Shown here: positions 15,977 through 41,543 of the stretch, one piece after another
How positions within the stretch are numbered: position 1 is the stretch's first letter
Layout: each line of letters opens with the position of its first letter
Origin: a virus
Direction: 5' to 3' (one strand)
Virus record (IMG/VR): IMGVR_UViG_3300047678_000104
Coordinates: 1 to 41,856 of that record
Length of the DNA: 41,856 nt
The notes under the pieces: generated by a model
What the model saw: the letters and a program-made list of their open reading frames with translations, nothing else
Told to the model about the DNA's origin: nothing
Databases searched by the model: none
Made by a program: the position numbers and the translations under genes

Positions 15977-17611
15977 TTATGTTGCCGCTTCGTATACACA
16001 AGACAATACAAAGTCGGATGTGTTAGTAAAATTTGCGTCTGTTACGGCAACCTCTGCTGCTGCTCCTTGCGTTTTAAGCCCGACAAAAGTATTGCCTGAC
16101 TGAGCGTATGAAACTACTGCGCCGCCCAACCCTGCGCCGTTTGCCGCCATTACCCCAGGCGCGACAGGAAACTGTGTCGCGTTTACGGTGAATGGTAATC
16201 CGTTTATGGTTGCTGCCCCGGTTGATGAACCTTTTGATGTGAGTTGCACGCGGATGTAAATCGAGACAAGGCGGCCAATTTTTGTATACCGTCCAAGCGT
16301 GTTTGCTGTGTATGTGACACCTACGCCTGCACCGCCAAATGTTATCGTTGGGGTGAACGTTCCCTCCTCATAGTCATCAAGCGTGTTGACGTTGCTGCTT
16401 GCGTTCTGTGTCGCTGGAAATTTAATTTGACCTGCCGCTGCACCTGAAATATCCACAAGCGAACTTACTGCTGCCGAACCGGTAACATCAAGCGCGACGG
16501 TTGGGGCAGTAGTCGAGCCTATACGAACATTACCAGCAAAGGCGCTGTTAGCGCCGCCAGACCCATAAAATTCCCATTTATTAGAGCCAGATGTGACGGC
16601 AGAAGCAACACCGTAATTATTTGTCGAGCCTGACTGGTCAAGAACTCTAACGCCATATGCCGATGTTCCTGCTCCTAATCCTTGATTATCAACCCACAAA
16701 CCGTGTGAATTTGTTATTACGCCCGTGCTGCTTCGCGAAACAGCTCTTGCTTCATACGCATAAGAGTTTGTTATGTTCCCGCTGCCGCCGATAATGATGA
16801 TTGAGCGATAGCCAGCGGCACTGTTGACCGGCGCAGAGTTTATGCTGCGAGCTGATACGCTTGACCCCGCAACAGCGTCGCATCCAGAGCCACCTGTCAT
16901 GTCAACAATTGCGTCGCCAGTTATTCCAGAAATGTTTGTCGCAAACGTTGAGCCTGTCATCGTAGAGCGGAAATTCATCGTCCTAAAATCTGATGCTGAT
17001 GCATTTCCTGCTGCGGTTGCCCTTAAAACAAGACCATTTGTTGTCCCTGCTGGATAAGTTGTCGGTTGGTAGTAGATGGTGCCGTAATTCCCGTTGCCAA
17101 CATCAGGCGTGCCTGTAAAAAGACGAAGGTAGTTACAAGCCATCGCAGCTTGTGTTGTTTGCCCAATCGCCGTGCCATCAATGGTGCCACCGGTGATTGC
17201 GACCGCATTGGCGTTTTGCTGCGCCATGCTTCCGAGCGGGGTGCCGAAATACAGCGACCGATAATCAATCCACGACGTGATAGTTGACGCGCCGGTGACG
17301 ACTCGATAAAGCAGAACCCGTCCGACTGTGAACGCTGTTGTGTTCGATGAAACGACGCCGGTTGTGGAATCAAACTCCACATAGTTGGTTGCCGAAGCGG
17401 CAAGCGTCAAGGTTCCGTTGGCGATGAGCGTATAGACACCACCTACCCACATCTGACCCCCATAGAAGGCCCAAATGAGTCCGGCTGTACCTTGGATACG
17501 GTTCGCGAGCGTCATCGCGTTAGAAGCAGCATTAAGCAGCGCGTTGGCCGTTACCTCTTTTTGAGCTTGGGTCGATTGAATTAAATCGAGCTGCGTTGTG
17601 CTATTGGACAT
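15977..17611 (-). CDS. Tail fibre / receptor-binding protein
   Basis: This encodes 544 residues. The N-terminal part has TTQLDLIQSTQAQKEVTANA, recalling the start of DUF2793-like tail proteins that attach to a baseplate, followed by a long Gly/Thr/Ser/Asn-rich beta region. A late TLDDYEEGTFTPTITFGG segment (about residue 415 on) is typical of receptor-binding fibre tails, and the C-terminus ends in compact beta-rich repeats. Low charge and Ser/Thr/Gly richness fit a trimeric fibre. It is expected to bind the host surface. It follows the tail-tip genes and has a clear ribosome site (AAGGAT). Confidence 0.82.
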   Translation of the reverse strand: MSNSTTQLDLIQSTQAQKEVTANALLNAASNAMTLANRIQGTAGLIWAFYGGQMWVGGVYTLIANGTLTLAASATNYVEFDSTTGVVSSNTTAFTVGRVLLYRVVTGASTITSWIDYRSLYFGTPLGSMAQQNANAVAITGGTIDGTAIGQTTQAAMACNYLRLFTGTPDVGNGNYGTIYYQPTTYPAGTTNGLVLRATAAGNASASDFRTMNFRSTMTGSTFATNISGITGDAIVDMTGGSGCDAVAGSSVSARSINSAPVNSAAGYRSIIIIGGSGNITNSYAYEARAVSRSSTGVITNSHGLWVDNQGLGAGTSAYGVRVLDQSGSTNNYGVASAVTSGSNKWEFYGSGGANSAFAGNVRIGSTTAPTVALDVTGSAAVSSLVDISGAAAGQIKFPATQNASSNVNTLDDYEEGTFTPTITFGGAGVGVTYTANTLGRYTKIGRLVSIYIRVQLTSKGSSTGAATINGLPFTVNATQFPVAPGVMAANGAGLGGAVVSYAQSGNTFVGLKTQGAAAEVAVTDANFTNTSDFVLSCVYEAAT

Positions 17612-17620
17612 TTTGTATCC

Positions 17621-19717
17621 TTACGAAAGAATGATTGTTGCTTGTGCGCCGTCGCCTATTGCCGCCGAAATCTGACAGACCTTTGTCGTGAGAGTCGTTT
17701 GTCCAGAACCAAAATCGGTTACCTGCTGAGCGAGCGTGTAAGTTGCGGCCGGGGTTAAGGTTAGGATTGAACGGACTATAACTGAGCCGTTGTAGATGTC
17801 TAGCCGGTATGACTCTGTGGCTTGGTCAAGTGGCACGTCCGTATTGTTTGACCAATAATTGACTACACGAGCGCGACGAACCCAAGCAAAATCAATATCA
17901 CCTGACACGCGCTTGGTCGCGAATCCGAACACAGGGCTGAACGGCTTTAGGCGCTGGCCGTTAAATTGCATGATTGCCTGTGAATCGGTGAACACGCGCG
18001 GTGGAACGCCAAACGTTATTGCCGAATAAAACAAAGGCGTATTCAGCGCCGTCCCTTCAACCGTCACATTCGCATAGTTTGAAAGAATCGCGAACCGGTC
18101 ACCAACCGCGTGCGTCAACATCGCCGCATCTGTTCCCTGCTTGCCGCGTATGAAGTTGCTAAGGGTGTAGGTTTGGCTTGCGATTAGCTCTGCGAATTGA
18201 AACTGCAAAAGCTCATCCCCAATTATGCAAAAATTCTTTCCAGCATAAAGCTCATCCAGCGTAATCGACGCCAGCGAGCCGTTCGCAATCTTGACCGTCA
18301 CCCTGCTGAGCAAATCGACTTGGTTACCACCCTGCCAATTCGGAAGCACGGTTGTTGCCCAGCCCATCGGCACGGCTGCTCCGACCGAATCGGCAACGAC
18401 CGAATAGCTTGAGCCGGAATCGCGTGAGCGATAGAGCGTTGCGCCGCCCCATTGGAGCGATTCATTGACCGGGCTTGCGATTGCGTAGAATCCCAGCACG
18501 TCTCCCGTCGCATCGTCAAGCGGTGCGATGTCTAGTATGCCGAGCCGGGTTGAAGACTTCGGCACCACATTCGTAGTCGCAGGGTCAACCGGGCTTCCGG
18601 TTACGGTCTGCGTGGTTGCGTTCGTGTTCTGAACAACAGCATCGTATCGGCTAATCATTCCGTCATCAGACAACTTCAGAAGTCGAACCTCAAACACAAG
18701 ATTGCCCTTGTGAAGCGTGATTACGTCTGTCGGCTCCAGCTGCGCATACTTACGCGAGAGACTAATCTGAATTTTGGTTCGCTCTGCCCACGACTGATAG
18801 AGAATTGACTGAGCGAGACGCGCGGCCTGCTGAGCCGTAAAAACAACAGGCATGTCAATCGATAAAAGGTTGCGTGCCTTTCCAGTCAAGCGCCTTGCAT
18901 ATTGCGAGCCTTTCTGATAAAGCCCGTCCACATCCATGTAGTTGACTTGGATGGTCTGTGGCAACGTGGTCTCATCGTCTCGATGTGTCGTGATTGCGTC
19001 TGATAGTCCGTTGTTCGACTTCTCAACCTGATAGTCTGTCTCTGGAATGTCGATGATGGATGGCTGGCCACGAGGAATGAATTTTATTTTTCCTTCGCTT
19101 TCGACTGCCTCAATCTGAAACGCTTCGCGAAGCGGTGCAATCGCATCCCGTGCATTTGTCGCTGTCGATATCAAATACCCTTCACACGAAATCGCATCCA
19201 CCATCGTCGTGTCAACATAATCGGTAACAGTAACGCCAACAGGAATAACTTCAGCAGCAACGCTTTTAACAATCGAGCCAACCGTTGTTGCTGCTGCCGT
19301 TATTGAGGATGGTGATGGGTAGACGTAGAACGCACCGGGGTTGGCGACCAGCACGCCTTTGTACGAACCCGCACCGGCCATGTTGCTGTTCGTGATTGGG
19401 TTGTTGAAAGTCGAATTTATTTGGGCAAGGTTTTCCGAGTATCGCGCGATGCCATAGCTTGGATAAAGAATGTTCTCCGATTCGTCGCATTCAAGGCTTT
19501 GCATCGGATTCGCAGCAACAGGCGAAATCGACGCTGTAGCAGTTACGGTTGCGCTTTCAAGGTCGGCCACAAGAACACGCTGAACGTTTGAGCCTGTGGT
19601 GTCATAGGTGGTAAATGCGATTGCGCTTTTTTTCGGCAACACCAGTGCGCCTGACAGAATCTCGCCAGCATTAAAGGCACTTCTAAAATCGAGCGTTGCG
19701 CCTTGCTTAAACGCCAT
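17621..19717 (-). CDS. Tail tip hub protein, C-terminal part
   Basis: This encodes 698 residues. The N-terminal 150 residues look like beta-propeller-type repeats. Then a hub-like region follows (about 160-350, AISCEGYLISTATNARDAI, then QIEAVESEGKIKFIPRG), with beta-rich domains further on (GVPPRVF-type and NFIRGKQGTDAA segments). That order matches the distal half of GTA-like or J-like tail-tip proteins, where the N-terminal half lies in the preceding gene. The start ATG (19717) shares its A with the preceding TGA (TGATG). Whether the two parts act as one joined protein is open. Confidence 0.8.
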   Translation of the reverse strand: MAFKQGATLDFRSAFNAGEILSGALVLPKKSAIAFTTYDTTGSNVQRVLVADLESATVTATASISPVAANPMQSLECDESENILYPSYGIARYSENLAQINSTFNNPITNSNMAGAGSYKGVLVANPGAFYVYPSPSSITAAATTVGSIVKSVAAEVIPVGVTVTDYVDTTMVDAISCEGYLISTATNARDAIAPLREAFQIEAVESEGKIKFIPRGQPSIIDIPETDYQVEKSNNGLSDAITTHRDDETTLPQTIQVNYMDVDGLYQKGSQYARRLTGKARNLLSIDMPVVFTAQQAARLAQSILYQSWAERTKIQISLSRKYAQLEPTDVITLHKGNLVFEVRLLKLSDDGMISRYDAVVQNTNATTQTVTGSPVDPATTNVVPKSSTRLGILDIAPLDDATGDVLGFYAIASPVNESLQWGGATLYRSRDSGSSYSVVADSVGAAVPMGWATTVLPNWQGGNQVDLLSRVTVKIANGSLASITLDELYAGKNFCIIGDELLQFQFAELIASQTYTLSNFIRGKQGTDAAMLTHAVGDRFAILSNYANVTVEGTALNTPLFYSAITFGVPPRVFTDSQAIMQFNGQRLKPFSPVFGFATKRVSGDIDFAWVRRARVVNYWSNNTDVPLDQATESYRLDIYNGSVIVRSILTLTPAATYTLAQQVTDFGSGQTTLTTKVCQISAAIGDGAQATIILS

Positions 19718-21183
19718 CACCAACCCCCAGAAGATTTTGTCGTTGCTGTAACAATTAGCTCAGTAAAATTTGCGAGGGGGTCAACGAGTTGAACCCAGCC
19801 GCCTTCAAACGCGACATACATCCAATCCGCATCCGACGAAATGCTGTGGAGCTTTTTTATGTACTGTGTTGTTGCCGAAAGTCCACCGGGTGGAGGTTGA
19901 AGTGCGACCGTCAGCGAATCGTATTGTTCTGTGTCCGGCCTCCAGCCCCATTTGCCGATGTCGGCATAGCGAACACCGATTGTGTTAAAGGCATAGTAGT
20001 CGCGTTGCTGAACGATACCGCCGATGCGCGTGATTTGAAGCACGTCTGATACGCCCAAGCCGGGGGAGCCAAAGCCGATTAGCTGCTTGCTGAACTCGTC
20101 CCAGAACAAGACCGTTGGTGCTAAGTCGGTTGACCACGTTTTCTGAGACTTGATTGCGCCGGTGTCTGGGTTTATTTCATAAGCCGTCATCGTCGCACCG
20201 CCGAATCCGCTATCACTCCGCAGAGCAATAATCGAATCGACATCCGGGATGTAGGCGATGACGTATGAAAAGAATGTTCCGCCGCCCCGCACGGGTTGAT
20301 TCGGAATCCCCAGCAACAGAAATTCGTTTGGCGCTTTTGTGTTCAGGTCGAGAAACGCGAGCTGCGGGGATGCGCTTGTATAGATGCAAGAATTTGACCA
20401 AACGCGGCCACGCTTTTTATCAACCCAGCTGCGGCCGGAAGTTGGATATTGCTGACCGGGCATTGTGAAGTACGAGCCGCTCACATCATACACGCCCGGA
20501 TTGCCGGATGAATTGGCAATAAGCTCTGGCGCGCTGAGCGTGTTCGTTGTGGCCTGCTGCAAAACTTCAAATTCAAGCGTTGGTAGTCGGTTCCCGTAGT
20601 TGGCCAGCTGCATCGTATCAAAAACAACATAGGCCGTTCCGCGATACGCGGGAGTATCCACGCCCTTGTCGGCAAAAATGGTTGGGTCTTGGAGTTGGGC
20701 GTTGTCGCCAAGATACACGCGCATAGTGGCAGCAATCTCGCCATTCTTTTCGAGCTGGTCTGGCGTTGCGGTATCGCTTACGTCATAGATGAGGATTTTG
20801 TTTGCCCAGATTCGTCGCACGCCCTGAATCGTGCCGCGACATAGCGCAACAGCAAAGCTCGCGTCATACGAATAGGTAACTTGAACGACTCCGCCGCCGC
20901 CCTTGCCGCCTTCATCAGATTCTTTTTTCGTTTCGTGCAAGTCCGTAGACCAAATCAAATTCCCCGGCACCCGCATCTTCCCAAAGACTTCCGGGATGCG
21001 GTCGCCATATGACGAGTTTTGAATTTTTAGGTCTTGTAGGCGTGGACCTTCCGAAACAATTTTTTCAGCCGAAATCGCGCCGCCAAGCGCAGACCCAAGC
21101 GCATAGCCGATGGAGCCGCCGATGCCGGGCAGCAGCGCATTCCCAATGACCGAGCCGGCAACACCAAGAACTAGGCTTGCCAC
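19717..21183 (-). CDS. Tail tip protein, N-terminal part
   Basis: This encodes 488 residues. The first 35 are hydrophobic and Gly-rich (LVLGVAGSVIGNALLPGIGG), then comes a typical LQDLKIQNSSYGDRIPEVFG segment. This is the N-terminus of the GTA-like tail tip protein (host-specificity type), which builds the hub and contacts the host. From about residue 230 on, repeated beta-strand units (DVDSIIALRSDSG, YEINPDTGAI) resemble a propeller domain that seems to be cut by the end of the gene. The start is GTG at 21183, overlapping the NlpC/P60 gene; AAGGTGGAA lies upstream. Confidence 0.82.
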   Translation of the reverse strand: MASLVLGVAGSVIGNALLPGIGGSIGYALGSALGGAISAEKIVSEGPRLQDLKIQNSSYGDRIPEVFGKMRVPGNLIWSTDLHETKKESDEGGKGGGGVVQVTYSYDASFAVALCRGTIQGVRRIWANKILIYDVSDTATPDQLEKNGEIAATMRVYLGDNAQLQDPTIFADKGVDTPAYRGTAYVVFDTMQLANYGNRLPTLEFEVLQQATTNTLSAPELIANSSGNPGVYDVSGSYFTMPGQQYPTSGRSWVDKKRGRVWSNSCIYTSASPQLAFLDLNTKAPNEFLLLGIPNQPVRGGGTFFSYVIAYIPDVDSIIALRSDSGFGGATMTAYEINPDTGAIKSQKTWSTDLAPTVLFWDEFSKQLIGFGSPGLGVSDVLQITRIGGIVQQRDYYAFNTIGVRYADIGKWGWRPDTEQYDSLTVALQPPPGGLSATTQYIKKLHSISSDADWMYVAFEGGWVQLVDPLANFTELIVTATTKSSGGW

Positions 21184-28398: not shown

Positions 28399-28614
28399 TT
28401 ACTTGTCCGTCTTTTTAGCAGAAGCAGGAGCTGCTGGTGTTTCGGTCGCTGCGACATCTTCCGCAACGATGCCATAACCCCAAAGGGTCGATGGGATGTC
28501 TTCACGCTCAATAGTCCCATCACCATCGAGCTTGCCGTTGTTAATGGCGCGCCGTTCGCCTTTTACCTCGAACACGGTGTTGAGCGATTCGGGAGCCGTC
28601 AACTTGACTTTCAT
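28399..28614 (-). CDS. Small hypothetical protein, 71 aa
   Basis: This encodes 71 residues, a short beta-rich stretch followed by an Ala/Pro/Lys/Thr-rich tail (TPAAPASAKKTDK). I recognise no family. It lies between the repeat-containing gene and the connector gene, overlapping the former by 4 bases. A minor head or neck part is possible. Confidence 0.55.
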   Translation of the reverse strand: MKVKLTAPESLNTVFEVKGERRAINNGKLDGDGTIEREDIPSTLWGYGIVAEDVAATETPAAPASAKKTDK

Positions 28615-28913
28615 TTGCCACCACCTTTCGATTCTTTATCCGGTTCGGTTGCAGGGGCATCCGTCTTTGCGCCCTCACCTTCAGGGGAATCCGTCTTTGC
28701 GCCCTTGCTTTCAGGGGCATCCGTCTTTGCGCCCTTGCCGGATTTTGGAGGCTTCACTTCTTCATCGTCATCATCCGCATACGTGAACCCGTGGTTCAGC
28801 GCTGCTTCGATTGCTTCTGGTGAATTGACTTCGATGTGACCTTTTTTCAGCGGAACTTCATTGCCGCCAAAAGAAAAGCCGCCGCAGTTTTTTGGTGCCT
28901 TCAATCGTGCCAT
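28611..28913 (-). CDS. Small protein with acidic/charged repeat tail
   Basis: This encodes 100 residues. The first 50 look like a small folded domain (CGGFSFGG, HIEVNSPEAIEAALNHGF), similar in feel to short phage proteins that end in an FxY turn. It is followed by an acidic patch and three copies of GAKTD(A/S)P repeats, then a Lys/Gly tail. The ATG at 28913 follows AAAGGAAATATC. The upstream in-frame start at 29000 lies across the capsid gene's terminator and is rejected. Confidence 0.65.
   Translation of the reverse strand: MARLKAPKNCGGFSFGGNEVPLKKGHIEVNSPEAIEAALNHGFTYADDDDEEVKPPKSGKGAKTDAPESKGAKTDSPEGEGAKTDAPATEPDKESKGGGK
28652..28741 (-). repeat. Three 30-bp tandem repeats
   Basis: Three adjacent 30-bp units begin at 28652, 28682 and 28712 and are nearly identical in their first 24 bases. 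Each encodes a ten-residue unit starting GAKTD. They lie inside the reading frame of the 100-residue protein. Confidence 0.9.
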
Positions 28914-28961
28914 GATATTTCCTTTCGATGTAACGTTGCTGTTGGGATTTTGTAGAGCAAG

Positions 28962-28993
28962 AAAGGGCAGGGGCAAAAGCCCCCACCCCTTTT
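28962..28993 (-). terminator. Hairpin terminator after the capsid gene
   Basis: On the - strand, AAAGGG pairs with CCCTTT and GGGGC with GCCCC, separated by a small internal loop, with a TTTT loop. A short T-rich run (TTTC) follows. It starts 16 bases after the capsid stop. The weak T tract suggests partial termination. Confidence 0.6.
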
Positions 28994-29008
28994 CAATCAC
29001 CTTCGGTA

Positions 29009-32109: not shown

Positions 32110-33111
32110 CTATTCTTGAATCTCAGGGGATAAAACCGGAACTACATCACAAAGGCAATTTGGGTGATAAGGTGGTCCCATATCCCCGGATGGAAACGGT
32201 GCATCTAAGTCGATTACATCGGCAGCTTCATTCTCGTCACAGACATCCTCCTCTGGATGGAGGTCTGACAAAATGCTTTTCTTTCCAGACACTTGTCCGC
32301 TTTCTTTCCAAGCATCCAAGTTTCCTTCCACGTGCGCATTCGCAAGCTCTGTCCGCGCAATCATTTCCGCACGGGCGTCTGAAAATCCGTAACTCTCCGC
32401 GATGGTGTCTGCGAGCGAATCGACGGTTGGGCCATCTTCCAGCGAATCGGCAATGATGTTGCGCAGGCCTTCGCGAGTCGTGCGTGTGATTGATAAATCG
32501 GAATTGGGGTTGTCCACGAACTGCCCAAGGTCATTGTCCCAGCGCATTCCAACGAGGTCTGCCGCGCGGTCGCGCGCAAAGTCAACCGCGTGTCGATTGA
32601 CCAGCTTAATAATCGCCTCATCATCCGCAAACCCGATAACGCCAAGCCCGGTCGCGCCGCCCTGCTTATATGCAGCCAAAAGGTCATCCCGTATCGCATC
32701 CAGAAAGTCTCGCGAATATCCTTCCAAATCGAGCTGTCGCAATATCTTATCAATCTCATCATCCTCATCCGTCTTTCGGAGAAGCGCGATGAGGTCTGCT
32801 TTCTTGGTGGACGCCTTTAAGATTTGCTGGGCAATCTTTTTTGGCCAATTCGCAAACACCGCCTTTATGCGCTTGTTTGTTTTGCCTTCGGTCGCGAGCA
32901 CGTACCGTTTTACCGGGGGCAAACGGTCTGCCCCTTTAGAAAGCGATAAGAGACTGCAGAAACAGGCTGATTGGGTATTGTACCCACCGAAGATTTTTAA
33001 CAGCGTAGCGTGTTGTATAGGCAGCTTCCGGGACAAAAGAACCCCCAGACTTGCCTTAGGCAAATCAGCATGCTTCTGATTACGGAAGATGGATGCGAGA
33101 TTTGCGCGCAT
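32110..33111 (-). CDS. Head morphogenesis protein (Mu F / SPP1 gp7-like)
   Basis: This encodes 333 residues. The C-terminal third has ARTELANAHVEGNLDAWK, then HPEEDVCDENEAADV and YHPNCLCDVVP. The A-R-T-E-x-A-x-A and HPNC-x-C motifs are signatures of the Mu F / SPP1 gp7 head morphogenesis family, where Cys/His residues suggest a metal site. These minor head proteins associate with the portal and are often ejected with DNA. The N-terminal half is basic and helical. It overlaps the previous gene by one base (TAATG). Confidence 0.88.
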   Translation of the reverse strand: MRANLASIFRNQKHADLPKASLGVLLSRKLPIQHATLLKIFGGYNTQSACFCSLLSLSKGADRLPPVKRYVLATEGKTNKRIKAVFANWPKKIAQQILKASTKKADLIALLRKTDEDDEIDKILRQLDLEGYSRDFLDAIRDDLLAAYKQGGATGLGVIGFADDEAIIKLVNRHAVDFARDRAADLVGMRWDNDLGQFVDNPNSDLSITRTTREGLRNIIADSLEDGPTVDSLADTIAESYGFSDARAEMIARTELANAHVEGNLDAWKESGQVSGKKSILSDLHPEEDVCDENEAADVIDLDAPFPSGDMGPPYHPNCLCDVVPVLSPEIQE

Positions 33112-33413
33112 TAGATTGGCCGTGAAGGGAGTTTCTTGGCGAGCGATAGAACGCGCTGCGGGTTGTTCGTGGTAACGACTACGCCGATGTCATAGTCCAC
33201 GTTTGGTAATGTGCTCGCAAACGGCACCAAAACGTCTGTTCCCGAAATGATGGCGGTTCCGTTGATGATGTTTGTCGGGTTTGGGTCAGTTCCGTAAGTC
33301 ACGCTGACAACCACGATTGCGCCGGTTAGCACGTCGCCCGATGGGACACCGTTGCCAAACTTGTACGTCAGCACGTTCTTGTCGTTCGGAGTGATGGTGC
33401 TAAAGTTGTCCAT
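33111..33413 (-). CDS. Small beta-rich hypothetical virion protein
   Basis: This encodes 100 residues, mostly predicted strands (VLTGAIVVVSVTYGTDP and FASTLPNVDYDIGVVVTTN), like a small Ig-like or jelly-roll module. It follows the repeat-containing gene with a 14-base overlap, so it may decorate the same structure. No family is recognised. Confidence 0.6.
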   Translation of the reverse strand: MDNFSTITPNDKNVLTYKFGNGVPSGDVLTGAIVVVSVTYGTDPNPTNIINGTAIISGTDVLVPFASTLPNVDYDIGVVVTTNNPQRVLSLAKKLPSRPI

Positions 33414-34989
33414 AGTATTTCCAAGTGGCTACAAAATCGGTTTCGGAAAGCTCGCAAGTCAAATCGCGAACAGGCAATCTGCTAGATAAATCGAGCGCAG
33501 GCAAAACGGCAACAAAAAGTTTAGACCCAACCGGCGCATTAAGCGTAGCAACCGCGTCAATCAGCGTTACCGACTCTGCGACCGACATAACGAAGATTTG
33601 CTGAGCTGTCAGAATTTCCGAAGCGACAAGCTGCTCAATCATCGCCGCAAACGTTACCGTGCTCACCGAAAGCATATCAACAACCGCGCCCACTTCGTCT
33701 ACCAGCGCCACGCGAACCATCGTTGCTGCACAAGAATCGACGGCAGCGATTGCCTCTGCCACCGAACCGTTCGTGATGAGCTGAGCCGTTACGGTATCGA
33801 CGGCTGCGCCGGTTTCGGATATGGCGCTGATAGTCGTGCGCGAACTTGAGACGGTATCTGCGGCCGCGCCGGTTTCGGATATGGCGCCTGTTATTGGTGC
33901 GGATGAACTCTGGGTGTCGATGGCTGCGCCGGTTTCGGATATGGCCGCTAGGGTTGCTTTGGTTGCTGCCGGGGCATCTACTGCCGCGCCGGTTTCGGAA
34001 ACAGCGGCAACCAGCGTCTCTGTGGCCGAAACGGTATCTACTGCCGCGCCCGTTTCGGCCTGCGCGGCTAAAAGCGTTTTAGTCGATGACACCGTATCGG
34101 CTGCTGCGCCCGTCTCTGCCTGCGCGGCTAAAAGCGTTTCAGTAGCTGAGACAGTGTCAGTTGCAGCCAATGTTTCATCTTGTGATGCTGAAATGACTCC
34201 ACCGCCCGTTACCGTCGCATCCACGATGTCCGGCTCAAAGAAAAAATAATTTGCATATCCCGGATATGCAGTCTCTGCCGTTCCTGGCGGTGGATTTGGC
34301 AAATCGTCTAGGCTGGTGATGCAGGTGATTGAGCCTGAACCAATACTCACGGCACCATAGCCAAAGTCTCGCGCATCGTTTGCTTCGGCCCCTGATAAGT
34401 TGATTGAGTAAACAGCCTGGCCGTTTTTGAAAAATGTTATGTCTGCCGAATCAATCCCAAACGGTGCAGACCTTACACCGACCGATATAACATCACCCGT
34501 AGTAAACGTTTCGACCGTCGCAAGCAAAACACCTTGTGAATATATTTCGCCTGTCGCCCAATATCCGTAGTTGTAAGCAGAAAGGCCCAATTTTCCTAGA
34601 AAATCTGTTAGGCTGGAATTATCAACTCCAACGCTTTGTGTGCTTGAGTCCCCAACATCTATTCTGAAAGCTGTGTAAGACCAGAATGAATTGACATCAA
34701 CAGCCGTCGTTCCTGCAAACGCTCTTTCTACACCGCTTGAACAGGATGCCGTAAAGCCATCATTTGTCAAAACAATGTTTGGGCCAGTTTGATTACCATT
34801 TTGGCCGCTAACCCCTATGAAAAAATTTGGAGGGATGAAATTCCAAGCCGGTTGCAAAACTGATGCGGAGATAACTAACAACTCAAGAGGCAAAAACACG
34901 TCGCCCCCAACGGCACGTTCCTGCATCGGGATTGCAAAAGACTGAACCGGCTTGTAGCCGGTTGGTCCAAATTTTCGGCGGACTGTCAC
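33400..34989 (-). CDS. SPRY-like domain plus repeat-containing virion protein
   Basis: This encodes 529 residues. After a short arm (1-40), residues about 45-245 look like a concanavalin/SPRY-like domain (WSYTAFRIDVGD, ADITFFKNGQAVYSINL). Then about eleven 20-residue repeats (consensus E-T-G-A-A-x-D-T-V-S) occupy roughly residues 265-485, and a C-terminal beta part ends with a conserved FVATWKYYG. The pattern suggests an elongated surface protein, perhaps a head fibre or decoration. The start is GTG at 34989, with a weak ribosome site. It is placed in the head gene block, not near the tail fibre. Confidence 0.68.
   Translation of the reverse strand: MTVRRKFGPTGYKPVQSFAIPMQERAVGGDVFLPLELLVISASVLQPAWNFIPPNFFIGVSGQNGNQTGPNIVLTNDGFTASCSSGVERAFAGTTAVDVNSFWSYTAFRIDVGDSSTQSVGVDNSSLTDFLGKLGLSAYNYGYWATGEIYSQGVLLATVETFTTGDVISVGVRSAPFGIDSADITFFKNGQAVYSINLSGAEANDARDFGYGAVSIGSGSITCITSLDDLPNPPPGTAETAYPGYANYFFFEPDIVDATVTGGGVISASQDETLAATDTVSATETLLAAQAETGAAADTVSSTKTLLAAQAETGAAVDTVSATETLVAAVSETGAAVDAPAATKATLAAISETGAAIDTQSSSAPITGAISETGAAADTVSSSRTTISAISETGAAVDTVTAQLITNGSVAEAIAAVDSCAATMVRVALVDEVGAVVDMLSVSTVTFAAMIEQLVASEILTAQQIFVMSVAESVTLIDAVATLNAPVGSKLFVAVLPALDLSSRLPVRDLTCELSETDFVATWKYYGQL
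33541..34200 (-). repeat. Eleven 60-bp in-frame tandem repeats
   Basis: A 60-bp period runs through this region without any indel. The four best copies share the + strand core GCGCCGGTTTCGGA (near 33806, 33866, 33926 and 33986); others are diverged but stay in phase. Each unit encodes 20 residues. They lie inside a coding frame and have no spacers. Confidence 0.92.
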
Positions 34990-34992
34990 GAG

Positions 34993-36153
34993 TTATTCGC
35001 TAACAAAGGTGAACTGACCGTTGTAGTTGGTGGCTGTTGTTGCCGGCTTCGTAATCTCCATCATCGACAAGCAAGCATTGTCATAAATGCTTTGCAGGTT
35101 GATTGCTGAATAAAGTCCGTCGATGATGGAAACGATGTTCGCGATTGGGCATGGGCAGAACGCGATTGGGTGGCCAAGAACAAAGTCAATCGTTCCCGTC
35201 GCAACCGCTGCCGAGCACTGCATCTGCGTCAACGCTTTAACGCCAGCCGTTGTTGCTGCGAGCGGCATAAACCAGTTACCAACAGCAAGGTCAACCCCGC
35301 CAACAACGCAGGCCGACACGCCAGCAATCGACGGAAAGTTGTTTCCCGTTCCGCCACCAGCATCTGTAAATTGACAAACGTTCCAGTTATGCGCAGTTGC
35401 TGCAAGCACAGTTGTTGGGTTTGCTGGGAAGCAAAAGTTGCCACCAGCGTAATCGCCGTTTGTTGCTGTTGAAGATTGATAGCGAGTCGGAACCCCAGTA
35501 ACTGCTTCGGTCGCTGTGCTGTTCATTGTCTTTGCTACAGAAAAAATTCGGTCGTATAAAAGCAATGTGTTGACCGCACTTGCACTGATTGACGCGTTCA
35601 GAAAGTGAAGCGTGTTTGCGTTAGTCGGATTAGCAAAACGCAAAGCCCCTGTCGAGCCTTGTGTTGGTACGGTTCCGCCTGGGGCAGAAGCAGCAGCGGC
35701 ACCGGCTGATGGTAGACCTGCGCGCGTCCAAAGGTCGTTACTGTTGCCGATTGCGTTTGCTGCTACTCCTGTTTTGGAGAAAATCGGGTACTGTCCCTTG
35801 CCGCCTGTAACTGCTGCGATGATTTGTGAGATATTGCTGAATGCCCCGAGTTGTCGCGAACCACGCGCCATTGCAGCTTGACTCCGCTTACGCTCACGTG
35901 TGAGGATGTCTTGAAAACGGTCACGAGCCGATGCATCAGAGCCTGCGCGGATGCGGCCGATGAAATCACCTCCCGCGCAGACATACACTTCCCCCGGAAC
36001 GCCAGCCAGCGCAATCGGTGGGCCATACCATTTCTCCATGGCCTTTGAAACGCTTTCGGTCTGCCCCTTTCCTAGAAAGCGCTCAAGGTGCTGACTGTGA
36101 GTTGGCTTTGTCGGGAAAGGTGCCCTTGTGCTGCTCATCGACATACGGCTCAT
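34993..36153 (-). CDS. Putative virion structural protein, 386 aa
   Basis: This encodes 386 residues. It has a Ser-rich start, then EVYVCAGGDFIGRIRAGSD and a helical stretch (DRFQDILTRERKRSQAA), then a long Ala/Thr/Gly/Asn-rich region with NANTLHFLNASISASA and a C-terminal part with HPIAFCPCPIANIVSI. The low charge and high Ala/Thr/Asn content resemble virion proteins. No known family is recognised. It has a strong ribosome site (AAAGGAATAATC) and is followed after 3 bases by the repeat-protein gene. Confidence 0.62.
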   Translation of the reverse strand: MSRMSMSSTRAPFPTKPTHSQHLERFLGKGQTESVSKAMEKWYGPPIALAGVPGEVYVCAGGDFIGRIRAGSDASARDRFQDILTRERKRSQAAMARGSRQLGAFSNISQIIAAVTGGKGQYPIFSKTGVAANAIGNSNDLWTRAGLPSAGAAAASAPGGTVPTQGSTGALRFANPTNANTLHFLNASISASAVNTLLLYDRIFSVAKTMNSTATEAVTGVPTRYQSSTATNGDYAGGNFCFPANPTTVLAATAHNWNVCQFTDAGGGTGNNFPSIAGVSACVVGGVDLAVGNWFMPLAATTAGVKALTQMQCSAAVATGTIDFVLGHPIAFCPCPIANIVSIIDGLYSAINLQSIYDNACLSMMEITKPATTATNYNGQFTFVSE

Positions 36154-36183: not shown

Positions 36184-36936
36184 TTACACGGCAAGCGAAT
36201 AAGTTACATTAAGCGTGTCCGTATTCACAACCCCTTTATCGCCGCCCGTAAAGAGACCTGCCGAGAACAGTATGCCGGTCGTGCCGTCTTTGGTCGAGAC
36301 AGTCGTCAAGAACGCGCCCTTGACGGTGCCTGTGCCCGTGATAGAGAATACGACGGCTGCTGAAGTTGACTTGGAACCGCCCGATGCTGCTGACCACGCT
36401 GGTGCTGGACGTGTACCCTGCGAATACGTTGGGGCATTCGTCGCACCGGCTTCTAGCCAACCCGCGTGAGACGCCATTGTGTCGCCTGATACGATGGATG
36501 TATAGCTAGTTGACGAAATGAGGCCAAGGAAAAACGCGGCTGTGTATCCAGAACCGGCCAAGAACTTGTCCAGCAATTCGTTCTTGCCGACCGTCACGAC
36601 TAAATTTTCAATCGCATCTTCCCACTTCAGGATTTGCATCCCAGCCATCTCATCGCGCAAATCCATTCGAGTCCGAGTGAGTGGCTTGCCGTAGCGCAAG
36701 GCCAGCACCGCGCGACTAAGGCCACCGACAATACCACGACGATGGAGCGCCGATTCAATCGTGTCCGAGCGTTTGCGAAGTTTGATGAAGGCTGGCTTGA
36801 GGTGCTCTGGAGTTTCGAAGCATTTGACTGTGTAGCGCCCTTTGAGCGTAATCGTTTCACCAATCACGGCATTGCGGCCGATAGTGGCACCAACTCCATC
36901 CTTTGCGTTGCCGCGTTCACCTGTGTTACCGTTCAT
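36184..36936 (-). CDS. Putative virion structural protein, 250 aa
   Basis: This encodes 250 residues. Residues 1-45 contain a short arm with GATIGRNAVIGETITLKG. The middle holds basic, helical segments (LKPAFIKLRKRSDTIESAL), and the last 100 residues are strand-like (STSYTSIVSGDTM, GTGTVKGAFLTTVST), similar to capsid-decoration or tail proteins. Its leader resembles that of the capsid gene, suggesting it is well expressed. No family is recognised. Confidence 0.62.
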   Translation of the reverse strand: MNGNTGERGNAKDGVGATIGRNAVIGETITLKGRYTVKCFETPEHLKPAFIKLRKRSDTIESALHRRGIVGGLSRAVLALRYGKPLTRTRMDLRDEMAGMQILKWEDAIENLVVTVGKNELLDKFLAGSGYTAAFFLGLISSTSYTSIVSGDTMASHAGWLEAGATNAPTYSQGTRPAPAWSAASGGSKSTSAAVVFSITGTGTVKGAFLTTVSTKDGTTGILFSAGLFTGGDKGVVNTDTLNVTYSLAV

Positions 36937-36980: not shown

Positions 36981-37172
36981 TTACGCAGCTGGGGCTTCAG
37001 GCTCCATAAGCTCAGACTCCAAGAACCAGCGTGAGTGAGGCTCGCCATTCTCCGTGTACTGGACAAGAATCTCTTTACAGTCCGCGTCTTGGTTCCAACG
37101 AACTTCCATGATTGTGCCGACAATTGCGGCAGGGACAATTTGTTTTACCTGTGTTCCAATTTTCGTGTTCAT
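36981..37172 (-). CDS. Small SH3-like hypothetical protein
   Basis: This encodes 63 residues with a beta-rich body (IGTQVKQIVPAAIVGTIMEV, ILVQYTENGEPHSRWF), resembling small KOW- or SH3-like folds that some phages encode next to portal genes, and an acidic end. The function is unknown. Its start overlaps the portal stop by 4 bases and is preceded by CGAAAGGGAACAGC. Confidence 0.6.
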   Translation of the reverse strand: MNTKIGTQVKQIVPAAIVGTIMEVRWNQDADCKEILVQYTENGEPHSRWFLESELMEPEAPAA

Positions 37173-38614
37173 GCTGTTCCCTTTCGTTCTGTGATTGACG
37201 TTACGTTTGTTGATTGTGGCTGGCCGAACTGTGGTTGCCGGCTCGCGTTGATTGCTGCCCTTGTTTCGGGCGTCATCGGTTTCTTTCCGAGCCGTTCCCG
37301 AATCTCATCCGCAGAATCGACGCCAGCATCGACATAAATCTTGTCTACTTGTGCTTGGTCTACTGCAGACAGCTCCTTGTTTGTCTTCCAAACAAACTCA
37401 ATGTCCGGCTCGCCATACTCAACCCGGATAAGACGGTCAAAGAATTTTTTCAACCAATTGAGCATTGGTACAAGTCCTTCCCGCAGCGCATTCTCGGACG
37501 ATGTTTCTGCGACCGACCGGTTGACCTCTTTGATGAGGGCTGTTGGTGGAATGGAGAATGCGAAACAGATGATGCGTGCAAGCCATTCGTCATACGCATC
37601 CTTCATAATTTCGGCTTTGGGGAAATGAATCTTGGACGCATCGAGCGGCACAAACTTCATCTTGCGACGTTGAGCAGTATCGCCCTCAAGCATCGTGTCC
37701 CAATAGACCTGAAAGTTTTTCAACGTCTCCATCGACCACGTATCAGGAACACCAGCAATTGCCTCTGGGATGTTTCCTTCGGTGTAGTATTGAAGCTGGC
37801 TAATTTGCCGACGCAGCGCGATGGACACGGTCACGATGACCTGCTCCACAGGCGAATATCCGTATATGCGATTTGTACGTGGGTTGCGCATCGAGTAGAT
37901 GAGCTCATCGCGCGTGTAGTCAACAGCGGGCAAGCCCTTGAGAACTTGCTGATATGCCGCGCCCTGCTCTGGGGTCGGTGTACGTCCGAACTGGTCGATG
38001 ACGCGCTTTATAGTGCCAGCATCAACAAGGTCAAGGCTATACAGTTTGCCACCACGTGTCTTGCGCGGATAGACAGCAACAGCATCGATGACAAGCAGGT
38101 CTTCAATAATCATCCGAACCCAACTGCCCCAATCGTGCTCCTTGTCGGGGGATTGGAAAAAATCTTTTACCGCTTTGAGACGTTCTGGCGAAACAGTCTT
38201 GCCTGCGGCAGTGACGATGTCAAACTCATAGCCCTCGATTTGGTCTTTGCGCGTCTCGATAACAAGGCGCAGCAAATCATATCCATCAGCGAGCGCACGC
38301 AATTCGTCAAACGAAACTGCGCTGTATGAACGTGGTCGAGTGTTGGTGTTGTAGCTGACCGGATAATCGAGCATGCGGCCAGCAACGTCTTTAGGCGCAA
38401 CAGGATTGAGCGGCTGCCCAGGCCCAAACCATCCGTTTGTTACGTTGGCTTCTGCTTGAGTGCCGGCACCTGCGACCAGCCCTTCAGGAATCTCAACAAT
38501 CTTCCCTCCACCAGCAGCGGCGTTCACCTTTTCGATTGGCGAAGTTGCACCGGCCTCTTTTGCTCCGATGAACTGCTCTGCCTTTTGAAGCGCATTAATT
38601 ATGCCATTGAACAT
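37169..38614 (-). CDS. Portal protein
   Basis: This encodes 481 residues. Portal-type segments are seen: LLRLVIETRKDQIEGYEFDI (stem region), SWVRMIIEDLLVIDAVAVY, ELIYSMRNPRTNRIYGYSPVEQ and IICFAFSIPPTAL with NRSVAETSSENAL. These match the phage portal family (HK97/SPP1-like). Twelve copies form the DNA entry ring at one capsid vertex. It follows the terminase and HEFYGNQ-type genes. The ribosome site is a GGGG-type. Confidence 0.93.
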   Translation of the reverse strand: MFNGIINALQKAEQFIGAKEAGATSPIEKVNAAAGGGKIVEIPEGLVAGAGTQAEANVTNGWFGPGQPLNPVAPKDVAGRMLDYPVSYNTNTRPRSYSAVSFDELRALADGYDLLRLVIETRKDQIEGYEFDIVTAAGKTVSPERLKAVKDFFQSPDKEHDWGSWVRMIIEDLLVIDAVAVYPRKTRGGKLYSLDLVDAGTIKRVIDQFGRTPTPEQGAAYQQVLKGLPAVDYTRDELIYSMRNPRTNRIYGYSPVEQVIVTVSIALRRQISQLQYYTEGNIPEAIAGVPDTWSMETLKNFQVYWDTMLEGDTAQRRKMKFVPLDASKIHFPKAEIMKDAYDEWLARIICFAFSIPPTALIKEVNRSVAETSSENALREGLVPMLNWLKKFFDRLIRVEYGEPDIEFVWKTNKELSAVDQAQVDKIYVDAGVDSADEIRERLGKKPMTPETRAAINASRQPQFGQPQSTNVTSITERKGTA

Positions 38615-39469: not shown

Positions 39470-41161
39470 CTATCCCCTCTGCCAGTATGGTACGTTGTCG
39501 GTCGGTGATGCCTTTGCCTCTTCTGCCTTTTTCGCAACATGGCCTGCGTGTTCGGATGAAAGCAAATCGAACAACGCCATCCCAGACATGTTCTCCATCG
39601 GCGCATTCGCATACACGCACGAATCGCCTTTGTCTGGTGAACGGCCTAACCGCTTCACAACACTTGTCGATGACTCATCGTCTTTTGACTCAACCTTAAT
39701 GCCGCGCGGTGTTAGCTCCCAGCGGAACGCGGAAAGGTCGGATGCCAACTCGTCATCAGGTGGCAATTCCATTTCAATCCCGTTGCTAGGGTCAAGACAC
39801 TCTCTCATATGCCAATAGGCCGCGCTGCGCTTGTTGAAGAATTTGAGATTGCCTTGCTTGCTTGTTCGCTCACTCGATTCAGCACCATTAAACGGCATTG
39901 TTTTGAATGAGGCTTTTGTGAAGTCTACTGGAGACGAACCGACACCGATTGCATCGATGGTGATTATTGTTGATGCGTCCGGATTGACGTTGATGATGGC
40001 TTGTACGACTTTTGGGCCATCGTTCGTCGTGACTCCACTGTGGATGACTTGCTGCTCGATTCGGTTGCCAAATCGCGGAGTGAGCACGGTTCTGTCGCGA
40101 CCACCGCGCGCAACATCCACGCCCAACTGAGACATCTTGCCGAAAGTCGGATTGCGATTGGCTTTCCAGCGTTCCTGTGCCGCCCGTATCCAAGCAGACG
40201 GAATAACTGTCCACGGGTCTTCAGTCATCCCCGCTTCAAAGTCGCCATACAGCATGATGGAGCGCAAAGGCTCTGGCATCGCTTGGAGCGTGGCCACATA
40301 TCCATTCTCAATCAGAATCGGATTATCACGCACCGACGCGAAAATAAACGTGCGTGACTTTGGAAAATAAATGTCCTCAACCTTTACCAACTTCTCATCA
40401 AACTCATAGACGTGATTGCCGTCTTTGTCGATGATGAACTGGTCGCCACTTTTGACCTCGATGTCTTTCCCGGCGATGGTCGTGAACCAACGCAACTCTC
40501 CCGGCTTGGCCTTGTTGGGGTGATTCTTGTCGAGCCATGGCGCGAAGTATCGAATGACCCAACGCCCCTCCTCAGTCGTTGGAGGGTTCATGGTACAGAT
40601 TACGCGGCAACGCTGGTTCTTGCGCGTGGTACGATTCCAGCCTGTGATGAATCGGAATTGATACTCAGAAAATTCAGTCAGCTCATCGAAGCCATAGAAG
40701 TCGCGCGGCTGGCCTTGATGCGCCATCACGTCTTTCTCATACTGGAGCGAACCGAAGTACAAAATTGCACCATTGTGAAAGCGCCAACGGTGTAGCGATT
40801 CGTTGTATGAGTCTTTTGACGACTGCGTGTCTTCGGGGTTGTATATCTGCCGGCTGCGGTCGATGATGGCCGTTAGCGATGGATAGACGCGACGGAAGAT
40901 GATGCCGCGCCAGCAGTTACGCGCCGCGCCCAAGAGCAAATCGGATTTGCCGCCACCGGCCTGTCCGCCGTATCCCAGCACGTCTGCTTTCGATTCCAAA
41001 GCCATGCGCTGGGGGTGTTGCGTTCCATCTTCGTGGTCCGGAAACGGTTTCCACAATCGACGATGGCGCAGCTCCTCCTGAAGCATCTTGATGACGCTGG
41101 GATGTGCGAGCCTTTGAAGTTGCGCCGTTATGAGTGAGAAGTTAGTCACTGAGCGATTCAT
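39470..41161 (-). CDS. terL: Terminase large subunit
   Basis: This encodes 563 residues. It has an N-terminal ATPase with Walker A GGQAGGGKS (residues 65-73) and Walker B FYGFDE (155-160, Asp159, Glu160), then the C-terminal RNaseH-like nuclease with GVDVARGG (Asp349) and ITIDAIGVG (Asp403). It cuts concatemeric phage DNA and pumps it into proheads. It is not clear from the sequence whether packaging is cos or headful. The ATG at 41161 is chosen because it leaves a 20-base overlap with the small subunit gene; an upstream start at 41194 would overlap more. Confidence 0.95.
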   Translation of the reverse strand: MNRSVTNFSLITAQLQRLAHPSVIKMLQEELRHRRLWKPFPDHEDGTQHPQRMALESKADVLGYGGQAGGGKSDLLLGAARNCWRGIIFRRVYPSLTAIIDRSRQIYNPEDTQSSKDSYNESLHRWRFHNGAILYFGSLQYEKDVMAHQGQPRDFYGFDELTEFSEYQFRFITGWNRTTRKNQRCRVICTMNPPTTEEGRWVIRYFAPWLDKNHPNKAKPGELRWFTTIAGKDIEVKSGDQFIIDKDGNHVYEFDEKLVKVEDIYFPKSRTFIFASVRDNPILIENGYVATLQAMPEPLRSIMLYGDFEAGMTEDPWTVIPSAWIRAAQERWKANRNPTFGKMSQLGVDVARGGRDRTVLTPRFGNRIEQQVIHSGVTTNDGPKVVQAIINVNPDASTIITIDAIGVGSSPVDFTKASFKTMPFNGAESSERTSKQGNLKFFNKRSAAYWHMRECLDPSNGIEMELPPDDELASDLSAFRWELTPRGIKVESKDDESSTSVVKRLGRSPDKGDSCVYANAPMENMSGMALFDLLSSEHAGHVAKKAEEAKASPTDNVPYWQRG

Positions 41162-41543
41162 CCCCGGCCGCAACGCCAAGTTTTTGGAGCACAACGATTA
41201 GTTGCTCAATCTCCTTCTCACCCATCGAAGCAACTTTTGTCGCATCGATAATGCTGATGGGTTTATCACCACCCTCAATTGCAATCGGCATCTTCTTGTG
41301 TGTGTAGGGAAGCGCGACCTGCGCCGCCCACATCTTGTCTGCCTTTCCGTATGTGCCTGTTTGGTCACGCAAAATCTGCAACGCGAAGTCAAGAGGCATC
41401 AATCCAGAGTCGATTTGCTTCGCAGCTAGAAGCTCCTTGCCAATGGTTCGACGGTTCTTGGTGCCTTTGGCTTTGCCGGCAGGATTGGCCACAAAGCCCT
41501 TGGGTGGGCCACGTTTCTTTTTGGATGGAGGCAAAAGAGCCAT
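41142..41543 (-). CDS. terS: Terminase small subunit candidate
   Basis: This encodes 133 residues. A basic Lys/Arg-rich N-terminus (PPSKKKRGPPKGFVANPAGK) of AT-hook or DUF5681-like appearance is followed by helical segments and a C-terminal EKEIEQLIVVLQKLG helix. It lies directly upstream of the large subunit, as small subunits do. It should recognise the packaging site. The ATG at 41543 is chosen over an upstream TTG at 41573 because GGGAAACAA precedes it. Identification rests on position and composition. Confidence 0.75.
   Translation of the reverse strand: MALLPPSKKKRGPPKGFVANPAGKAKGTKNRRTIGKELLAAKQIDSGLMPLDFALQILRDQTGTYGKADKMWAAQVALPYTHKKMPIAIEGGDKPISIIDATKVASMGEKEIEQLIVVLQKLGVAAGDESLSD

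Follow-up and report, generated by a model that had tools for sequence, protein, structure and literature searches.

A repeat-protein gene and its conserved partner, g386: a candidate virion-surface module between the portal and capsid genes of tailed phages

Introduction

Why would a phage carry a gene with a long array of short tandem repeats among its head genes? The question is raised by a single IMG/VR virus record of 41856 bases, termed the window below. The initial annotation of this DNA described the repeat protein as a possible surface fibre or decoration of variable length. To that description the present analysis adds a conserved partner gene, g386, many different repeats of 20-23 residues occupying one genomic slot, and the spread of this arrangement across unrelated phages.

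Gene order in the window

The head block of the window is encoded on the minus strand. It begins with terminase (39470-41194, PHROGs match) and a 334-residue open reading frame, followed by the portal gene (37169-38614; phrog_2662, E 3.6e-68, and Pfam Phage_portal), which forms the upstream border of the cassette. Next come g250 (36184-36936; phrog_8123 family), g386 (34993-36153) and the repeat gene (33400-34989), which is listed among the open reading frames with a GTG start and encodes 529 residues. The small g100 gene (33111-33413) overlaps the repeat gene at its 3′ end, and a MuF or SPP1 gp7-like head morphogenesis gene (32110-33111; Phage_Mu_F at 34.8 bits, above the cut-off) forms the downstream border. 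A protease-like gene and a 495-residue protein of phrog_13692 complete the order. PHROGs matches in the block cover terminase, portal, MuF/head morphogenesis and protease. We take the 495-residue protein to be the major capsid protein, the function annotated for its homologues in Arthrobacter phages. Beside its gene, a small protein (28611-29000, minus strand) contains a separate 30-bp tandem repeat at 28652-28739 with GAKTDAPES-type units.

The end of g386 lies 3 bp before the repeat gene and in the same frame, with a TAA stop and one codon between them (34987-34995). The repeat gene thus lies between the portal and the MuF-like and capsid genes, in the head region rather than near a tail fibre, as first annotated. 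Downstream of the head genes lie the tail genes: a head-tail adaptor and tape measure come first, a J-like protein and a 544-residue open reading frame (15977-17611, minus strand) last. By our reading of its sequence, this last frame resembles a canonical tail fibre, with a typical C-terminal tip sequence, so that the window phage seems to have a tail-fibre-like gene apart from the repeat gene; its single PHROG match is to a family of unknown function. Two neighbouring frames (17621-21183, minus strand) share the J-like protein family, phrog_4271, between them: the first matches profile positions 1-220 and the second 749-1306.

The repeat array

The repeat protein consists of an N-terminal 40 residues, a SPRY/ConA-like region at approximately residues 50-235, the repeat array, and a C-terminal 45 residues. 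The array comprises eleven in-phase units of 60 bp, or 20 residues, at 33538-34197 on the minus strand, equivalent to residues 265-484; the same eleven phased repeats had been placed one codon away, at 33541-34200. The DNA identity of the array to itself is 0.55 at a lag of 60, 0.50 at 120 and 0.46 at 180, compared to a top identity at any lag of 0.395 in a codon-shuffle control (n=500). Glutamate occupies unit position 8 in all eleven units and aspartate or glutamate occupies position 14 in all eleven; the period is free of insertions and deletions, as proposed. TRF called the array only as two partial arrays.

Eleven is the correct number for phase, but only seven units are well conserved (33778-34197, minus strand), because units 8-11 (33538-33777, minus strand) are degenerate. 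These four share 28-53% DNA identity with other units, while pairwise identity among units 2-7 is 50-78%. It had been suggested that the central copies are most alike and the outer ones diverged. Neighbouring units are the most alike, and divergence is greater toward the C-terminal side of the array than toward the N-terminal side. Among units 1-7, mean identity falls from 0.65 between neighbours to 0.38 between units six apart. In addition, where two units agree in amino acid (A, V, T, S, G, L or P), the codon is also the same in 40% of cases, compared to the 27% that the codon usage of the gene would give. Because likeness drops with distance and codon sharing is above expectation, the units probably arose by tandem duplication followed by divergence, which supports the earlier proposal that the array grew by unit duplication.

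A SPRY-like region does lie N-terminal of the repeats in the same protein, as the initial annotation stated, but its score against Pfam SPRY (PF00622) is 14.9 bits (E 0.029, residues 108-192), below the gathering cut-off of 26.3 that defines membership. The protein matches no PHROG at E≤0.001 and has only sub-threshold matches in Pfam, and it thus falls in none of the known tail-fibre or decoration families of these two collections. A search of IMG/VR and a phage collection with the whole protein gave no relative (best weak match E 9e-3); the phage collections were searched with low-complexity filters, which weaken repeat searches. Sequence searches of the PDB with the protein, a repeat profile and a g386 profile returned nothing convincing. 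An AlphaFold2 model of the protein made without an alignment was uninformative (pLDDT 33) and was discarded.

Relatives of the capsid protein and of the repeat

The stretch between portal and capsid genes is variable among 80 relatives found by capsid protein. In some (e.g. L007) the MuF gene directly adjoins the portal gene, while others have inserts of 2-6 kb, and in L010, L030, L044 and L058 the inserts code for other short-period repeat proteins. In one locus (L015:1781-7435), two truncated portal copies, each ending in a different C-terminal domain, come after a complete portal gene, as if portal C-termini had been swapped as cassettes, and in another (L043:2349-4142) a MuF-like protein has an intein-like insert that ends in an HN/C junction.

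When IMG/VR was searched with 150 residues of the array, 13 loci were found. One of these, L105, was rejected as a tape-measure-like protein matched by chance. The others have related units of the form E-[ST]-G-[AS]-A-x-D, in most cases with a period of 20 or 21 residues, in proteins of 333-1494 residues whose non-repeat parts differ from protein to protein. The L102 protein has a Gly-rich region (Gly_rich_2, sub-threshold), and by our reading a LamG-like region in L095 and a SPRY-like region in L093 accompany the repeats. Homologues of g250 adjoin or sit near these ETGAA-type repeat genes in L093, L095, L096, L097, L100, L102 and L104, as do relatives of g100 in L099 and L104. The portals of such relatives include podovirus-type phrog_1216 (L093) and phrog_113 (L102), compared to phrog_2662 in the window.

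Pairing of g386 with repeat genes

The gene upstream of the array, g386, has no match in Pfam and none in PHROGs at E≤0.001. A single-sequence search with g386 found nine loci, and an alignment search found 80 loci in IMG/VR plus another four in bacterial assemblies, of which 67 remained after removal of near-identical copies. Relatives of the window g386 are 36-64% identical to it. Nearly all loci are metagenomic, with open reading frames called mechanically.

For 64 of the 67 loci, it was feasible to ask, with block shuffles as the control, whether the next open frame encodes a tandem repeat of 16-27 residues. A tandem-repeat protein is the next gene after g386 in 53 of these 64 dereplicated loci, an approximate count because two positives (L138 and L170) may be in the wrong frame. 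By the same test, no tandem repeat was found in 51 genes just upstream of g386 or in 36 second-downstream genes. A cruder test applied earlier, before dereplication, had given 62 of 79 loci. The repeat period is 20 residues in 20 loci, 22 in 11, 21 in eight and 23 in seven; the rest have periods of 16, 17, 18 or 24. Most partner genes begin no more than 33 bp from where g386 ends. The window itself has g386 directly upstream at a 3-bp gap and a repeat within the 16-24-residue range in the next gene, where the test gave period 20 and a z of approximately 28 against block shuffles. L089, L123, L124 and L176 each carry a tandem series of two to four g386 copies.

A distant, shorter branch of g386 provides a small replication of the pairing. 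The searches with the repeat or the capsid protein, independently of g386, had led to L100 and L010, and both loci encode shorter proteins that align with the g386 profile (hhalign E 2.8e-13 and 8.7e-11). More loci were found with the L100 protein as query, and a repeat protein with a period of 20-23 is the next gene in L201 (the L100 contig), L202, L203 and L204.

Such regular pairing bears on whether the repeat protein belongs to the virion at all. It could instead be a secreted or intracellular repeat protein encoded by a passenger gene, and PHROGs give no signal for a virion location. The close pairing with g386, nearly without gaps and within the packaging and head operon of different phages, nevertheless makes a passenger gene very unlikely.

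The repeats themselves are far less uniform than g386. When 51 repeat partners were compared by BLAST, they fell into 23-40 groups, depending on threshold and masking, while their 51 g386 proteins formed one group. Position and approximate unit length are thus kept, while unit sequence is not. Either replacement or extreme divergence of the repeat sequences could produce this pattern.

Copy number, added domains and a shared N-terminus

Closely related g386 genes are followed by arrays of different lengths. In L129, L131 and L137, g386 is 94-95% identical, and the partners carry approximately 7, 9 and 7 units; a strict unit pattern counts 7, 8 and 7, with one extra L131 unit seen by eye. The partner in L119, whose g386 is 74-76% identical to that trio, has 17 units. 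Repeat number thus varies among relatives, as a fibre of variable length had led the initial annotation to expect, and an identical number in all relatives, which would have spoken against expansion, was not found. Other domains are added as well. The L137 partner has a Gly_rich_2 domain (Pfam, 61.9 bits, above cut-off) between the first unit and the remaining array, and the L184 partner has a LamG domain.

An N-terminal segment of approximately 40 residues (...W.PTL..DPxxPxLPLE) is common to at least 28 of the partner proteins, while their bodies differ. The motif was picked after inspection of the sequences, and its profile was built from 23 partners. All members were recovered in leave-one-out tests. 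Outside this set, the profile found four more partners at E<0.01 and the L148 partner, which had stood among the controls because its open reading frame was miscalled; all true controls fell short of 0.1. A single segment for all partners was rejected: only about half carry it, so it does not strictly define the module. The N-terminus of the window protein was not detected by profiles of 23-27 partners, and a phmmer search with it gave no significant relative (best non-self match E 0.35).

A conserved N-terminus with a hypervariable body is the usual plan of tail fibres, and this raises the alternative that the repeat protein is a tail or neck fibre for host recognition that is merely encoded in the head block. 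The position of g386 next to the portal in podophages and the Gly_rich_2 domain in L137 would agree with such a role. We nonetheless consider it quite unlikely, given that the gene block sits among head genes and that the frame at 15977-17611, which follows the tail genes of the window phage, appears by our reading to be tail-fibre-like.

Movement between phages

Open reading frames of at least 330 residues upstream of g386 include portals of phrog_156, 21, 537, 1216, 12, 2662, 12082 and other families. Ten upstream frames were tested singly, and their best portal matches were phrog_12, 12082, 1216, 156 (three times), 145 and 21, while two were terminases. Because the upstream portals come from different families, this distribution suggests that g386 and the repeat gene move horizontally together as a cassette.

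Predicted structure of g386

An AlphaFold2 model of g386, based on 52 sequences, is confident (pLDDT 89.4, pTM 0.71) and consists of N-terminal helices followed by a predicted jelly-roll-like β sandwich. By VIA-align its neighbours score no higher than Z 5.4; among them are viral jelly rolls, trimers of the TNF-like kind, the tip of the BclA fibre and a capsid chain of cyanophage Pam1. All of these matches are below Z 8, a range in which chance arrangements occur. The predicted fold is a common arrangement and no proof of kinship. Birnavirus VP2, found by Foldseek in the PDB at E ~5e-4, was rejected as a match since its TM-score was 0.15. In BFVD, the strong matches to the g386 model are all uncharacterised phage proteins.

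The predicted fold is compatible with a role in capsid decoration only, in which g386 would be cement-like, the repeat protein would help to stabilise the capsid as an accessory and bind no receptor, and repeat variation would be near-neutral drift. The gene block does lie between portal and capsid genes, and trimeric cement proteins on podophage heads provide a precedent (PMC9698820). However, the match to the Pam1 capsid chain (7eel_H, Z 4.8) that also points this way is weak, tied with many unrelated jelly rolls and within background. Moreover, the SPRY-like, LamG and Gly-rich additions to the partner proteins fit ligand binding better, which leaves decoration alone unlikely.

A candidate virion-surface module

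The reading that we favour, if only by a little over an even chance, is that g386 works as a pair with the repeat gene, a two-gene module that specifies an appendage on the virion surface, with both proteins presumably present in the virion. The putative jelly-roll-like g386 protein would be the conserved base, and the 529-residue protein the appendage, its N-terminus docked on that base. The N-terminus of the window protein is missed by the shared profile, so that for this protein docking is suggested by gene position. The 20-residue units may form a stalk or array whose length and reach are set by gain and loss of units. The SPRY-like region of the window protein could then bind a surface ligand, just as SPRY-like, LamG-like or glycine-rich parts of the partners generally may bind host or environmental ligands.

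A broader proposal, which we put at somewhat under even, is that this is a mobile virion module of unrelated tailed phages in which unit length is kept at 20-23 residues while unit sequence is replaced or diverges, so that selection would act on stalk geometry and length rather than on sequence. The module appears to be undescribed relative to Pfam, PHROGs, the PDB and the open-access literature; the last, searched mostly at abstract level, yielded no description of the pair. If the proposal is correct, the genes between portal and capsid in many uncultured phages would encode a virion-surface system that has gone unrecognised, and two groups of "hypothetical" proteins would gain names. A second adhesin or decoration gene could be predicted from its place in the genome, independently of similarity to known fibres. 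The loci would also provide a natural series for asking why repeats stay at 20-23 residues while their sequence is free.

Comparison with known systems

Several known systems resemble parts of this arrangement. The gp8.5 protein of phi29-type phages is an optional head fibre that, like the repeat protein, is encoded among head genes. Compared by sequence families only, however, the repeat protein has no match to this family in PHROGs or Pfam, and we know of no conserved jelly-roll partner gene for gp8.5. Collagen-like or glycine-rich tail fibres are alike in having low-complexity repeats in virion fibres, and L137 and probably L102 have Gly_rich_2 beside their repeats. In contrast, the ETGAA unit lacks Gly-X-Y and the window protein has no tail-fibre PHROG match.

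BACON is a carbohydrate-binding domain that is far longer than the 20-residue units. BACON repeats of crAss-like phages are likewise tandem repeats in a phage protein and have been studied as evolving arrays (PMC6949934), but no BACON match was found in the window protein with Pfam. T4 Hoc and other capsid decoration fibres are similar in that an accessory virion protein joins a conserved capsid-binding domain to a variable string of units (PMC10385173). The units of Hoc are whole Ig-like domains, while those of the window protein, in which Pfam found no Ig domain, are 20 residues long. In addition, the capsid-binding domain of Hoc is C-terminal, whereas the conserved segment of the g386 partners is N-terminal.
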